Shown piece by piece: positions 33,701-40,211 of a DNA stretch of 42,681 nt. This DNA is from an uncultured Clostridia bacterium (lineage in GTDB: Bacteria > Bacillota > Clostridia > Christensenellales > Borkfalkiaceae): assembly GCA_944354535.1 (NCBI GenBank), contig CALVPY010000022.1, forward strand, positions 1-42,681. Direction: 5' to 3'. The first letter of the stretch is position 1. The number at the start of each line of letters is the position of its first letter. The position numbers and the translations under genes were made by a program. A model generated the notes under the pieces. That model ran no database searches, was not told the DNA's origin, and was given only the letters and a program-made list of their open reading frames with translations.

Positions 33701-33785
33701 GCGGTCGTGGCGGAACTGGCAGACGCGCAAGACTAAGGATCTTGTGGGTAACACCATGCAGGTTCAATTCCTGTCGACCGCACCA
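33701..33785 (+). tRNA. tRNA-Leu, anticodon AAG
   Basis: Acceptor arms GCGGTCG and CGACCGC pair fully, with discriminator A and an encoded CCA (33783-33785). The anticodon stem CAAGA/TCTTG holds the loop CTAAGGA, so the anticodon is AAG (CUU codons, wider if A34 becomes inosine). A long variable arm and T-loop TTCAATT fit a class II tRNA-Leu. A34 in tRNA-Leu is uncommon in bacteria but is known in some Firmicutes. Confidence 0.95.
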
Positions 33786-33820
33786 CGAAAAAACGGAGCC
33801 TAAGCTCCGTTTTTTCGTGG
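33783..33820 (+). terminator. Terminator of tRNA-Leu(AAG), stem begins in the CCA end
   Basis: A perfect 17-bp stem (33783-33799 with 33804-33820) around CTAA contains an A6/T6 tract and GGAGC/GCTCC. Its left arm starts with the CCA of the tRNA. Confidence 0.9.
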
Positions 33821-33968
33821 TATGAACGAATTGAACCACAGCCGCCGATCATGCACGGAATGGGCATGAAAATCAATATCGGCTGTCGGTTCACGCGAGC
33901 CCGAAGGGCGACGCTTCGCCAAGGGGACCCCTTTGGGGTGTCGGCGAATTCCTGTCGACCGCACCACG

Positions 33969-34090
33969 TCGCCGCAAGGCGCGTAACAAAACAGCTTGGC
34001 AAAATGCCAAGCTGTTTTCATTTACGCCTGCGTCTCCTCTTCCCAAAAATCTTTGCCGGGGCAAATCTTTTTGGGAGCCCTAAGGGGGCT
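33969..34090 (+). repeat. tRNA-3'-end-associated palindromic element, copy 1
   Basis: It begins TCGCCGC immediately after CCACG of the tRNA fragment. A 13-bp perfect hairpin (33988-34000 with 34006-34018) lies between GGCGCGT and ACGCCTGCG flanks, followed by CTCC and a long palindrome (34041-34076) built on TCCCAAAAA and TTTTTGGGA, ending GAGCCCT. The same order of parts follows tRNA-Leu(CAA) at 38628, where the hairpin sequence is different but the flanks and palindrome are conserved. Confidence 0.75.
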
Positions 34091-34152
34091 TAAGCTCTGT
34101 TTTTTCGTGGTATGAACGAATTGAACCACAGCCGCCGATCGCGGGCAAATGC

Positions 34153-35919: not shown

Positions 35920-38443
35920 CGTACCAGCTCCTTCCCATTGAGACGTCTGCAATGAGCGGCACTTCCAGCTTCGCCGCTTTTTCCATTTCATCTTTCAGTA
36001 CGGCAGCCGTGCGCTCTGCTTCCTCTTCGGGAGTATCGAGGATAAGCTCGTCGTGTACCTGCAATACGAGTTTTGCGCGGAGCCCTTCCTCGCGGAGGCG
36101 GCGGACGACGCCCAGCATGGCGAGCTTGATGATATCGGCAGAACTGCCCTGAAGGGGCATATTCATCGCAGCGCGTTCGCCGAAGGTGCGCGTCGTATAG
36201 TTGGAGGACTTCAGCTCGGGCATATACCGTTTGCGGCCGAGGATGGTCGTCACATAGCCGTCTTCCCTGGCGCGGCGCACGTTTTTCTCCATGTATGCTT
36301 TGACTTCTGGATAGGTCGCGAAGTAGCCGTCGATGTAGCCCTGCGCTTCGGTCGTGGAACAGCCGATGTCTTTGGCGAGCCCGAAGGCGGAAATGCCGTA
36401 GATGATGCCGAAGTTGACGGCTTTCGCGCGGCGGCGAAGCTCGGGCGTGACTTTTTCGGGCGGCACTTTGAAGATGAGTGAGGCTGTAGCCGCGTGGATG
36501 TCCTTGCCTTCGTGATAGGCTTTGCGAAGAAGCTTTGCGCCGCTGAAATGCGCGAGGAGCCTCAGCTCGATCTGCGAATAGTCGGCGTCGACGAGCACGT
36601 TCCCTTCACGGGCGATGAAGAGCTTCCTCAGTTCCCTGCCTTCCTCGCGGCGGACGGGGATGTTCTGTAAGTTCGGATTGGCGCTCGAGAGCCGCCCCGT
36701 CGTCGTCATCGTCTGATTATAAGTCGTATGCACGATGCCGTCTTTGATGAGCGGGAGGAAGCCGTCGATATAGGTGGAGCGGAGCTTCTGGATCTCCCGA
36801 TAGCGCAGGATGAGGCGGGCGATCTCATGCTCGCCTGCAAGCTGTTCGAGTACTTCGGCGTTCGTGGAATAGCCGCCCCGCGCCGTCTTCTTGACGCCCT
36901 TTGCGCTGTAGCCGAGGCGGTCGAAGAGGATCTCCGAAAGTTTTGCGGGGGAATTGAGGTTGAATTCACAGCCTGCAAGCGAGAAGATCTGCCGGGAAAG
37001 CGTGTCGATCTCCGCGGCATAGCGTGAGGATAGCTCGGGAAATTTTTCCTCATCGACGCGCACGCCCGTCTCTTCCATTTCATAGAGCACGCGGGAAAGG
37101 GGGAGCTCCAGCTCCCGGTAAAGGCGGTTGCAGTTATCGTCCGCGACGCGTTCCGCATCCCTGAAAGCCCGCATGAGCGCATAGGCGCAGTTGGAGGCGG
37201 GAAGGGCATATTCGCGCGCAAAGTCTTCTGCCGTCGTCGCCTTTCTGCCCGAATTGAGAAGATAGGACAGGAGCCCGACGTCCTCGACGGGGCAGGTCAC
37301 GGGAGAGGACGCAAAGCGATGTAAAAGCGCCTTATAGTCGGCGACGATCGCCCGCTTGTTCCCCGCAAAGAGGGGTGCAAAGAGCTTCGTGATGTCCTCG
37401 GGGAAGTACCCTGGCTCTAAAAGCGTCTTTTTGAGCGGAAAGATGTATTCCGTGCTGCCGATGCAGACGTGAGTTCCGCCCTCTCCGTCTTCGGCAAAGG
37501 AGAAGTGATCCGCCTGTGCAAGGGCAGCCTCGAAGACCTCTTTTTCGGGAAGCGTGACGCATTCCGCATCCGACGTTTCATACTCATCGAAGAGGGAAGA
37601 GTGTACGAGCGTGCGGAACTCCAACTTGTCGAGTGCGGCGCGCGCCTCGGCAGAGAAGGGGATGTGTACGGCAAATTCCTCGACGGGAATGGAGAGGGGG
37701 ACTTTCGTGTCGATGGTCGCAAGCGTGTGCGAGAGTTTTGCATCCTCCTTCCCCGCGATGAGCCGCTTCTGAAGGCCTGCGGCAAGTTCGTCAAGGTGCT
37801 CATAGACGCCTTCCGCTGTGCCGTATTTCTGAAGAAGGGAGAGGGCGGTCTTGGGCCCGATGCCGGGTACGCCGGGGATATTGTCGGAAGAGTCGCCCAT
37901 GAGCGCTTTTTCTTCGATGATCTGCGCGGGGGTAAGCCCCACCTTTTCGAAGAAGTTTTCGTTCGTGAGGCGGTCGGTATCGCTGACGCCGCGCTTTGTG
38001 AAGCAGACGGAGACATCTTCGTTCACCAGCTGATAGGCGTCGCGGTCGCCCGTATAGATGACGGAACGGACATTCTCATAGGCGCGTGAAAGGGTGCCCA
38101 TGAGGTCGTCCGCCTCATAGCCCTCCATTTCCACATAGCGGATATGCATGGCATTTAAGACCTCTTTGAGGGCGGGGAACTGCACTATGAGCTCCTGCGG
38201 GGTCGGATTGCGCGTGCCTTTATACTCTTTATAGAGCTTGTGGCGGAAGGTGGGGGCATGGACGTCGAAGGTGACTGCAAGGTAGTCGGGCTTTTCCTCT
38301 TCTATGATCTTGAAGAGGAATTTGATAAAGCCGAAGATGGCGTTGGTGGGGAAGCCGTCTTTGGTCGTGAAGCCGCCGAGTGCATAGAAAGCCCTGTTCA
38401 TGAGGCTGTTTCCGTCGATGAGAATGAATGTTTTCTTTTCCAT
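35909..38443 (-). CDS. polA: DNA polymerase I
   Basis: Repairs DNA and removes Okazaki primers. The 844 residues comprise the 5'-3' exonuclease ('LIDGNSLMNRAFYAL', 'YEADDLMGTL', 'GDSSDNIPGVPGIGPKTA'), a middle domain and the polymerase ('DADYSQIELRLLAHFSG', 'KAVNFGIIYGIS', 'LQVHDELIL'). The middle domain lacks the D-x-E and N-x-x-x-D motifs of 3'-5' proofreading ('HFSFAEDGEGG', 'VADYKALLHRF'), so it should not proofread, like Taq and Bacillus stearothermophilus Pol I. An open frame continues upstream through the antisense of tRNA-Leu(CAA), but the family N-terminus begins at the ATG at 38443. The promoter is so close that the mRNA is probably leaderless. Confidence 0.96.
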   Translation of the reverse strand: MEKKTFILIDGNSLMNRAFYALGGFTTKDGFPTNAIFGFIKFLFKIIEEEKPDYLAVTFDVHAPTFRHKLYKEYKGTRNPTPQELIVQFPALKEVLNAMHIRYVEMEGYEADDLMGTLSRAYENVRSVIYTGDRDAYQLVNEDVSVCFTKRGVSDTDRLTNENFFEKVGLTPAQIIEEKALMGDSSDNIPGVPGIGPKTALSLLQKYGTAEGVYEHLDELAAGLQKRLIAGKEDAKLSHTLATIDTKVPLSIPVEEFAVHIPFSAEARAALDKLEFRTLVHSSLFDEYETSDAECVTLPEKEVFEAALAQADHFSFAEDGEGGTHVCIGSTEYIFPLKKTLLEPGYFPEDITKLFAPLFAGNKRAIVADYKALLHRFASSPVTCPVEDVGLLSYLLNSGRKATTAEDFAREYALPASNCAYALMRAFRDAERVADDNCNRLYRELELPLSRVLYEMEETGVRVDEEKFPELSSRYAAEIDTLSRQIFSLAGCEFNLNSPAKLSEILFDRLGYSAKGVKKTARGGYSTNAEVLEQLAGEHEIARLILRYREIQKLRSTYIDGFLPLIKDGIVHTTYNQTMTTTGRLSSANPNLQNIPVRREEGRELRKLFIAREGNVLVDADYSQIELRLLAHFSGAKLLRKAYHEGKDIHAATASLIFKVPPEKVTPELRRRAKAVNFGIIYGISAFGLAKDIGCSTTEAQGYIDGYFATYPEVKAYMEKNVRRAREDGYVTTILGRKRYMPELKSSNYTTRTFGERAAMNMPLQGSSADIIKLAMLGVVRRLREEGLRAKLVLQVHDELILDTPEEEAERTAAVLKDEMEKAAKLEVPLIADVSMGRSWYDAK

Positions 38444-38449
38444 ATCCTT

Positions 38450-38478
38450 ATTGTAACACGCGCAGAGAAATTTTGCAA
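38450..38478 (-). promoter_or_regulatory. Promoter abutting the polA start codon
   Basis: On the minus strand TTGCAA (38473-38478) and TACAAT (38450-38455) have a 17-bp spacer. Only six bases separate the -10 from the ATG, so the expected start is the A of the ATG. AAGGA lies between them, too close to act as a normal ribosome site. Confidence 0.7.
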
Positions 38479-38496
38479 GAAAAAGGCGGAAATCGC

Positions 38497-38525
38497 TTGA
38501 TTTTTGAGCCTTGGTAGGATATAAT
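38497..38525 (+). promoter_or_regulatory. Promoter of tRNA-Leu(CAA)
   Basis: TTGATT (38497-38502) and TATAAT (38520-38525) have a 17-bp spacer, divergent from the polA promoter. The expected start near 38532 is 7 nt before the mature tRNA. Confidence 0.85.
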
Positions 38526-38538
38526 GAGCGGGTAAAAT

Positions 38539-38625
38539 GCCGCTGTGGTGGAATTGGCAGACGCGTCGGACTCAAAATCCGATGGTAGCGATACCGTATC
38601 GGTTCGACCCCGATCAGCGGCACCA
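38539..38625 (+). tRNA. tRNA-Leu, anticodon CAA
   Basis: Acceptor arms GCCGCTG and CAGCGGC pair, with discriminator A and encoded CCA (38623-38625). The anticodon stem TCGGA/TCCGA holds CTCAAAA, giving anticodon CAA for UUG codons. The long variable arm and T-arm ATCGG-TTCGACC-CCGAT fit tRNA-Leu. Confidence 0.97.
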
Positions 38626-38627
38626 CG

Positions 38628-39262
38628 TCGCGGCGGGGCGCATTTGGCGGGCAGTTGCTTAAAGCAACTGCCACGCTTACAACGCCCGCCGCTCCTTTTC
38701 CCAAAAATCTTTGCTTTGCAAATATTTTTGGGAGCCCTGTTAGACAGGCGCGTTTTAAGTCGGTTTGAGCAAACTCAAACCGACTTTTTTTAACGCCTGC
38801 GGCTCCTTTCCCCAAAAAAATACTTCGTCTTTTTTTGGGGGCCCCGTTGGGGCGCTCTTTTCGGGTGTTTGTCTAACGGCAAACACCACGTTTGGAGCGC
38901 CCGCCGTCTCGCGCGGTAGTGTCCGCGCTCGGTCAGGAAACGGCGCGCGCAATGCGCCGTTTCCAAGCTCGAAAGCGGTCAAAGCCACACCGTGGCTTTG
39001 ACAAGAAAGCGCTTTCTCGCCCTTTTCCCACAAAATTCGCTGCGCGATTTTTGCGGGAGCCCTGAAATTATTTCCCAAAAATCTTTTTCTGCGAAAAACA
39101 TTTTTGGGAGCCCTATGAAAACATTTTGTGGGCCTTCGCCATTCGGCGAAGGCCTCACTTATAACGTCGGTTCCTCCTTTCCCCAAAAAAATACTTCGTC
39201 TTTTTTTGGGGGCCCCATTTAGGCGCGTTTTAAGTCGGTTTGAGCTTGCTCAAACCGATCTT
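38628..39262 (+). repeat. Gene-free array of variable hairpins and conserved palindromes
   Basis: Variable perfect hairpins occur at 38650-38672, 38757-38786, 38864-38887 (inside an outer stem 38850-38902), 38936-38964, 38978-39002 (outer stem GAAAGCG/CGCTTTC), 39131-39154 and 39235-39258. Between them are five blocks of one palindrome type, CTCC-TTTCCCAAAAA...TTTTTGGGAGCCCT, at 38692-38738, 38803-38845, 39020-39063, 39071-39114 and 39174-39216; the second and fifth are identical over 43 bases. The hairpins at 38757 and 39235 share sequence; the others differ. All blocks point the same way. The 38757 hairpin with seven T probably ends the tRNA transcript. No credible coding region is present. 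Confidence 0.85.
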
Positions 39263-39266
39263 TGAT

Positions 39267-39340
39267 TGACAGGGGGTGTCAGTGCGGGGATATTTGTTCA
39301 GATGGTGAACTTTCCATGAAAATGTCACAGAATGGTCACA
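39267..39340. promoter_or_regulatory. Possible regulator sites upstream of the polysaccharide operon
   Basis: TGACA-GGGGG-TGTCA (39267-39281) is a 5-bp inverted repeat. GTCACA occurs at 39324-39329 and again exactly 11 bp later at 39335-39340. Both lie 40-115 bp upstream of the operon's -35 and could bind regulators; the 11-bp direct repeat resembles response-regulator sites of the PhoB type. Confidence 0.35.
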
Positions 39341-39379
39341 AGGTTGTATAAACTTCCGCAAATATATGGGCGCAAAGGT

Positions 39380-39408
39380 TTGACTTATTTGCGTATGGCG
39401 TGTATAAT
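39380..39408 (+). promoter_or_regulatory. Promoter of the polysaccharide operon
   Basis: TTGACT (39380-39385) and TATAAT (39403-39408) have a 17-bp spacer. If translation begins at 39543, the leader is about 128 nt. Confidence 0.85.
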
Positions 39409-39474
39409 TTAGTTGGAAGTTTATAAGAAAGGCCTTGCCCGTGTTTCAAGATCGGGGCAGAGGGTCGGACGGCA

Positions 39475-39504
39475 GGCTGCACACCATATGGCTGCACACC
39501 ATAT
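39475..39504 (+). repeat. 15-bp tandem duplication
   Basis: GGCTGCACACCATAT occurs twice in direct succession (39475-39489 and 39490-39504), in the leader or N-terminal extension of the sugar transferase gene. Its length is a multiple of three, so it keeps the frame. Confidence 0.9.
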
Positions 39505-39542
39505 TCGTATGCGCTGCTTTCCGTTCGCAAATCATTTGGATT

Positions 39543-40211
39543 ATGAACGATCACACGAAAGATCCTGCCGCGTTTTCGCGCGGCGGAGCAAAATATAAGA
39601 GCTATCTGTTTTTCAAGCGCGCGTTCGACATTTTCTCGTCGGGCGTCATGTTGCTGCTTCTTTCCTGGCTCTTTCTCATTCTGGCGCTTGCCGTCAAGCT
39701 GAGCGACGGCGGTTCCGTGTTTTATCGCCATCCGCGCGTCGGCAAGAACGGAAAAGATCTCTTTATCCCCAAATTCCGCAGCATGAGACGCAACGCCGAT
39801 CAGCTCAAAGATATGCTCACGCCCGAACAGCTTGAGCAATACCGCCGCGAGTATAAGATCGACAACGATCCCCGTGTTACGAAGGTGGGGCATTTTTTAC
39901 GCAAGACGAGCCTTGACGAGCTTCCGCAGCTTTGGTCCATCTTCAAAGGCGATCTTTCCGTCGTCGGCCCGCGCCCCCTCATGCGGGAAGAGGTGAAGGA
40001 GAAATACGGCGAGGATGCGGAAAAGCTTCTCTCCGTCAAGCCGGGGCTCATCGGATGGTGGGCGGCAAACGGCAGGAGCAAATGCACCTACGAGAGCGGC
40101 GAGCGGCAGAAACTCGAGTTATACTACGTCGACCATTGTTCTTTCGGGCTCGACATCAAGATCGTCTTCAAGACCATCGGCAGCGTTCTCCGCGGCGACG
40201 GCGCACAGTAA
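39543..40211 (+). CDS. Undecaprenyl-phosphate sugar-1-phosphate transferase
   Basis: Begins polysaccharide assembly by moving a sugar-phosphate from a nucleotide sugar onto the lipid carrier at the inner face of the membrane. The 222-residue protein has one hydrophobic membrane segment (about 28-50), then '[20 protein letters not shown]' (60-79) with 'KFRSM', '[19 protein letters not shown]' and 'VVGPRPL', all classic for the short PglC/WcaJ-type catalytic domain. The ATG at 39543 gives the usual length but has a weak ribosome site; a GTG at 39441 with AAAGG eight bases upstream would add 34 residues of unusual sequence. Which sugar is used is not clear. The GT4 gene follows after 11 nt. Confidence 0.9.

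Follow-up and report, generated by a model that had tools for sequence, protein, structure and literature searches.

In Escherichia coli, the tyrT repeats with the rtT RNA carry the tRNA 3' end within repeats that lie behind the tRNA gene, a likeness to the array described here. We know of no hairpin families nested in one another among those repeats.

CGTC-tagged REPs (Di Nocera et al. 2013, PMC3733652) resemble BC, one of the repeat families that make up the array, in being high-copy, non-coding stem-loops that start with CGTC and have, in that account, no known dedicated transposase. They are described there as 20-40 bp long, with stems of 8-9 bp and mostly CCA tails. BC carries the CGTC tag, but it is about 112 nt long, lacks the 8-9 bp stem and the CCA tail, and adds to its bulged outer stem a variable inner hairpin and a second palindrome. 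The terms 'Clostridi' and 'Firmicutes' do not occur in the main text of PMC3733652. REPINs and GTAG REPs with RAYT, as outlined in PMC3116915 and PMC3733652, are small dispersed palindromes like those of the array; a REPIN joins two REPs in opposite orientation, whereas the five palindromes of the array share one orientation and no PF01797 gene was found in the genome that carries it. The fungal and sponge mitochondrial double-hairpin and repetitive hairpin-forming elements are also mobile-looking hairpins, a likeness drawn from their description in PMC2800124. That source relates no flanking duplication for the Allomyces elements, and in its sponge elements stems are kept while loops vary, whereas here stems vary together and linkers are kept. 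Hairpin maintenance by template switching, as set out in PMC8794818, shares two-sided compensatory change and loop inversion with the array, but it is a mutation mechanism and not an element family. By analogy, the array would work like the mitochondrial double-hairpin elements and start like the CGTC REPs, and its size and stems place it outside the REP definition.

A preliminary description of the locus knew of no family with this layout, and within the Rfam and literature searches that is still so: no paper carrying these sequences was found (the term matches listed were unrelated by title), with CGTC-tagged REPs and mitochondrial hairpin elements as systems of a related kind. A match to a REPIN or a MITE, which would have spoken against it, did not emerge. 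By eye, the inserted element A of the array shows neither of the two marks of a MITE, terminal inverted repeats (its ends are not inverted repeats of each other) and target-site duplication (none seen at sites with and without A or at the joints of the D repeat in genome G025).

The array behind tRNA-Leu (caa)

The window, the whole stretch of 42,681 nucleotides that was analysed, contains a tRNA-Leu gene (anticodon caa, ARAGORN) at 38539-38625, and the array starts at the next base. All features given here are on the + strand; the assemblies are metagenomic, and the order of units is as assembled. Seven perfect hairpins with arms of 8-13 bp were found between 38628 and 39262, the number and arm length first noted, and they are well beyond chance: 300 dinucleotide shuffles averaged 0.22 such hairpins with a peak of 2, and 64 further bins of 635 nt from the window averaged 0.14 and also peaked at 2. 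The fold z-score of the array was -13.7 (20 shuffles).

BC unit 1 (38626-38737; BC model R2, 112.6 bits, E 3.8e-28) has the CGTCG head, the outer stem, a variable hairpin at 38650-38672 and a palindrome at 38699-38733; palindrome positions here and below are approximate. Unit 2 (38742-38844; R2, 53.1 bits) has its variable hairpin at 38757-38786, followed by a terminator-like T run, and its palindrome at 38810-38840. Unit 3 (38845-39064), delimited by reading the sequence and with a weak R2 match at 38944-39062 (31.5 bits), consists of a variable hairpin (38864-38887), an inserted A and a palindrome (39026-39058). The 117-nt A lies at 38906-39022 (A model R1, 140.2 bits, E 2.4e-31, and covariation), with three hairpin domains and conserved linkers; two perfect hairpins (38936-38964 and 38978-39002) belong to it and not to the BC units. 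At 39071-39113 a lone BC-type palindrome (39073-39109) follows, with a weak, partial R2 match at 39071-39110 (model positions 73-112, 28.2 bits). Unit 5 (39114-39216; R2, 62.7 bits at 39103-39215) has a variable hairpin at 39131-39154 and a palindrome at 39181-39211. The partial unit 6 (39217-39262), an 88% direct repeat of 38746-38788, ends the array with a hairpin (39235-39258) whose arms are those of unit 2.

The preliminary description had seen five or more unrelated hairpins alternating with one palindrome type. Six distinct perfect hairpins remain when the arms common to hairpins 2 and 7 are counted once, two of the six (4 and 5) coming from the inserted A. The five palindrome copies in a single orientation are there, but the alternation is irregular, since palindrome 4 is not preceded by a variable hairpin and the final unit has no palindrome.

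A second BC unit of the window (33967-34080; R2, 90.8 bits) follows a repeat of the 22-nt tRNA-Leu (aag) 3' end. In this region (33701-34140), the tRNA 3' end (22 nt, identical) and the terminator region (59 nt, 93%) are directly repeated around the unit, and a perfect 18-bp hairpin behind the tRNA takes in its last bases.

At the orthologous tRNA-Leu in five relatives' assemblies, the array was absent in three, reduced to a truncated unit in one and replaced by a shorter, different array in one. The site was read in three of the 61 genus genomes (59 with a match), and G094 and G095 came from a separate search; G093 and G096 coincide in coordinates with G087 and G026 and were counted once. G034 and G026 have a plain terminator and no array, G094 has no array and a different neighbour, and G087 has one truncated unit. 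In G095 (Candidatus Gallimonas gallistercoris) the unit directly behind the tRNA aligns as the counterpart of unit 5; it is followed by a unit with the arms of units 2 and 6 and then by D with A. Because unit 5 directly adjoins the tRNA in G095, units 1-4 are probably an addition. The array would be a lineage-specific outcome of insertion and duplication of hairpin elements. The early suggestion of a landing zone for a tRNA-linked element is supported by these differences and by the BC units found against tRNA 3' ends in several species.

Two hairpin loops at this locus are inverted between assemblies: with similar flanks, the loop of unit 2 is CAAA here and TTTG, its reverse complement, in G095, and in unit 5 the ATTC of this array stands against GAAT in G087. 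Such inversion is described as a mark of template switching (PMC8794818, in outline). As a general process it was rejected: of 320 oriented pairs whose loops differed but were equally long, one was an exact inversion. In a small screen limited to BC hairpins, 27 arm-loop types included a single AAAA/TTTT pair, on which no weight was placed.

Dispersed families and their sites

The array is mostly composed of two dispersed families, BC and A. The source genome of the window (G000, Gallimonas-like; 1.93 Mb, 53 contigs) gave 86 BLAST matches to the array, and model searches gave 59 BC matches (R2, E<=1e-3), some of them partial or opposite-strand readings of the palindrome, and 35 strong A copies (R1, E below 1e-13). 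A BC copy starts with CGTCG and has an outer stem that bulges once, a variable hairpin and a CTCCTTTTCCC...GGGAGCCC palindrome that begins TCCC. Across 27 aligned copies, chosen from pattern matches, the length was about 106-116 nt, the bulged stem had 10 pairs, the end was GGGAGCCC, and G2, T3, C4 and G5 of the head were invariant (27/27). The linkers of A are TCTC, TCGGTCA, an ACAATG-like loop, an AAGTTCG-like and a CTCACCC-like stretch, and its conservation lies in linkers (TCTC, TCGGTCA and the C-rich 3' end), not in stems. At L026, the linker CTGACCG of an A element is replaced by a lone BC-type palindrome.

A was present in 26 of 49 genomes of the genus, with one borderline match elsewhere in the order. 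The A pattern occurred in 38 stretches of named genome records, a set possibly without the source genome, all of them Candidatus Gallimonas gallistercoris or uncultured Clostridia bins. BC was present in 47 of the 49 genus genomes and in 10 of 32 genomes of the order's other families, and BC-like repeats were found in 41 of 245 sampled genomes of the class (about one in six). The pattern of D, a further hairpin repeat, occurred in 42 of the 245, and its reversed-pattern control gave 0 among the matches listed. Three BC copies (L170, L171 and L172) have similar flanks on both sides and may be embedded in a larger repeat.

The hosts of A are other hairpin repeats (D, BC and a third type), in which it occupies a fixed joint, with the variable hairpin on one side and the next palindrome on the other. 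In the relative G025 the order is CCCTCAGTC, a hairpin and GACAGC, then A, then CCCC...GGGGAGCC; at least 23 near-identical A copies share this D joint (22 with both ends visible), and the D hairpins around them differ from one another. At this joint the short hairpin of D loses its outer pairs. By pattern, the 24 A sites of the source genome comprised 15 in D, 6 in BC and 3 elsewhere, of which two are in one common palindromic repeat and one is D-like. The host of A at L008 and L009 is a further palindromic repeat (CTCACGGCATTTGTTTTGCGAAGCAAAAGAAATGCGTGAA). The nesting also runs the other way, with BC within the apex of A's third hairpin at L023, L031, L042, L051 and L064.

Orthologous sites with and without A exist. 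In BC, L005 of the source genome is filled and L062 empty (flank identity 83-85%); in D, L042 is filled, its A carrying a BC, and L029 of the source genome is empty. Of 10 two-sided orthologous pairs, 8 were aligned; among the alignments listed, these two clear cases for A were used, and the others show larger turnover. No circle, excision or movement was seen, and gene conversion or deletion could be the source of some filled/empty differences. At L015 and L055 of the source genome, with flanks about 95% identical, the A copies differ in the stems of hairpins 1 and 3 and are identical in hairpin 2.

A stem starting at the 3' end of A reached a score of 4 or more in 24/24 copies and in 90% of 2000 control positions; for a score of 5 or more the figures were 15/24 and 56%. 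Only the BC sites stood out (scores 8-14). The rule that A always lies 5' of a hairpin was dropped as evidence for guidance by shape, since control positions score similarly. Because this generic test leaves the D sites like control positions, a joint guided by sequence is as possible as one guided by shape.

Several species have BC units immediately at tRNA 3' ends, and the family occurs at other sites as well. The gap to the tRNA was inspected in 43 matches (41 of a set of 98 and the two in the window): 12 start exactly after CCA and 3 more within 3 nt, and the 12 give no unbiased rate because many loci were fetched as matches to tRNA-Leu and its downstream sequence. The starts at gap 0 are behind tRNA-Leu of four anticodons and one tRNA-Arg. 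Among the 20 best BC copies of the source genome, two adjoin a called tRNA (38626, and C9:53499 at gap 1), two are behind tRNA-end-like letters (33967 and C51:70048) and 16 are behind neither. The four tandem BC units behind tRNA-Arg in G040 (L184) are a near-exact repeat of a two-unit block.

Pairing of the stems and explanations of the array

When a stem changes, its two arms change in concert; mismatches are few, and G-T is no commoner than A-C among them. In 24 A copies of the source genome, 97.6% of stem cells were paired, versus 84.3% when shuffled and 29-46% when slid, and 19 of 37 pairs showed two-sided change; these are 24 of 25 pattern-found copies in 30 loci, L023 being omitted as it has no 3' end. 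Across species, 24 distinct rows gave 96.7% paired versus 59.9% shuffled and 33-47% slid, with two-sided change in 36 of 37 pairs; this alignment was fitted to the model and contains 25 rows, one of which lacks hairpin 2, from a choice of 22 loci. In BC, 15 of 25 pairs changed on both sides. Covariation is commonly read as a sign of RNA structure, and RNA under selection would accept wobble on one strand. Among 1961 stem cells of 53 pooled distinct A copies there were 22 G-T and 27 A-C mismatches, versus 42 G-T and 4 A-C in 780 acceptor and T stem cells of 65 tRNAs from the same loci (Fisher p 1e-6). This p value is only a guide because the pooled copies are related and not independent; the pool was drawn from 35 of 56 relatives' matches, those of exactly 117 nt, together with 20 of the 24 copies of the source genome, and cutting copies to 117 nt introduces misaligned cells. 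In the aligned copies of the source genome, 884 cells included 7 G-T and 13 A-C. A therefore shows no preference for G-U over A-C at deviating stem cells, as an RNA gene would, and since both mismatches are equally rare, unlike in tRNAs, its pairing seems to be constrained at the level of DNA rather than RNA.

We favour reading the array as small, non-coding mobile DNA elements nested in one another, which moved as DNA, kept their arms and built up the array by duplication and insertion, and give this reading a probability of about one half. Hairpins in exposed single strands, such as those at replication forks, would assist the movement, and the joining, at a hairpin foot and with no target duplication, would be done by an enzyme in trans or by host replication and repair. 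The arms would stay perfect if recognition requires a Watson-Crick hairpin, if template switching copies one arm onto the other, or both; arrays would enlarge through tandem duplication and further insertion. Insertion at the DNA level with correction of the arms has the best support among the mechanisms, as an inference, and the least certain step is insertion guided by shape and not by sequence. A more specific version is tentative, with the odds against it: the elements would be recognised by shape, a trans-acting enzyme reading linkers and pairing, not stem sequence, and inserting them at single-stranded hairpin feet and behind tRNA CCA ends, so that they colonise one another and tRNA genes across Clostridia. 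The early proposal of selection for structure or copying by template switching agrees with the two-sided covariation, with the mismatch counts pointing to DNA rather than RNA.

That proposal's companion, a structured RNA, has become less likely. If A (and BC) were a regulatory or catalytic RNA with pairing selected in the transcript, the three hairpin domains, conserved unpaired linkers, strong covariation and RNA fold z of -6.0 would be expected, and the variable hairpins of BC behind tRNAs can resemble terminators; yet G-T is as rare as A-C, and in a permissive Rfam search of 38000-39900 the tRNA was the one credible match, with nothing else near its gathering score. The near-identical amplification of A within D repeats also suggests mobility, though an RNA element could be mobile too, and we consider this explanation unlikely. 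Somewhat less credence goes to REP-like or PATE-like elements moved on single-stranded hairpins by an HUH transposase (Y1, RAYT or IS200/IS605), for which the dispersed non-coding hairpins, the lack of visible target duplication and the CGTC start shared with CGTC-tagged REPs (as described in PMC3733652) speak. PF01797, the one HUH family covered, was found in neither of the two genomes richest in A, G000 (92.8% complete, 35 A) and G025 (71% complete, 33 A), and it does not track A: genus genomes with A have it in 6 of 26 cases and those without A in 8 of 23 (p 0.53). Reverse transcription and insertion of transcripts that end in the element would explain why BC starts exactly behind the CCA end of tRNA-Leu of several anticodons and of tRNA-Arg, and an RNA intermediate was proposed for the Allomyces hairpin elements (as related in PMC2800124). 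Against such spread through RNA, which we rate as very unlikely, stand the equal G-T and A-C counts and the 16 of 20 best own BC copies away from tRNA ends. The reverse transcriptase that a retroelement RNA calls for (PF00078, RVT_1) was not found in G000 or G025, and RVT_1 occurs in 3 of 26 A-positive versus 5 of 23 A-negative genus genomes (p 0.45). Neither enzyme is thus associated with A across the genus genomes, and both were rejected as drivers, with the qualification that absence is weak evidence in draft genomes and that these two families were the ones covered.

Two further explanations are both most improbable. Palindromes could arise and be perfected in place by replication template switching, with arrays formed by local duplication, a mechanism described for other hairpins (in outline, PMC8794818); the loop inversions at the tRNA-Leu locus, the duplicated tRNA ends and the tandem units agree with it, but it leaves the near-identical A copies at one joint in at least 23 separate sites unexplained, and it is weakened by the filled and empty sites and by the rarity of loop inversion overall. 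A BIME-like scaffold for a nucleoid, gyrase or recombination protein would fit hairpin clusters of a conserved type lying, here, outside long genes, whereas the patchy occurrence of A among the genus genomes argues against an essential role for it.

Families in which strong covariation goes with a DNA-like balance of G-T and A-C might be taken for riboswitches or ribozymes by error, and they offer a test case for template switching versus selection. A mover enzyme may stand behind these repeats. BC-like and D-like repeats each occur in about one sixth of the class genomes sampled, so common gut bacteria may have their intergenic regions and tRNA flanks shaped by this system.

At L155, L162, L164 and L165, from four species, BC follows the first part of a tRNA-Leu gene, which ends in GGCAGACGC plus one base, and at L164 the BC is followed by an apparent reverse complement of the anticodon arm.
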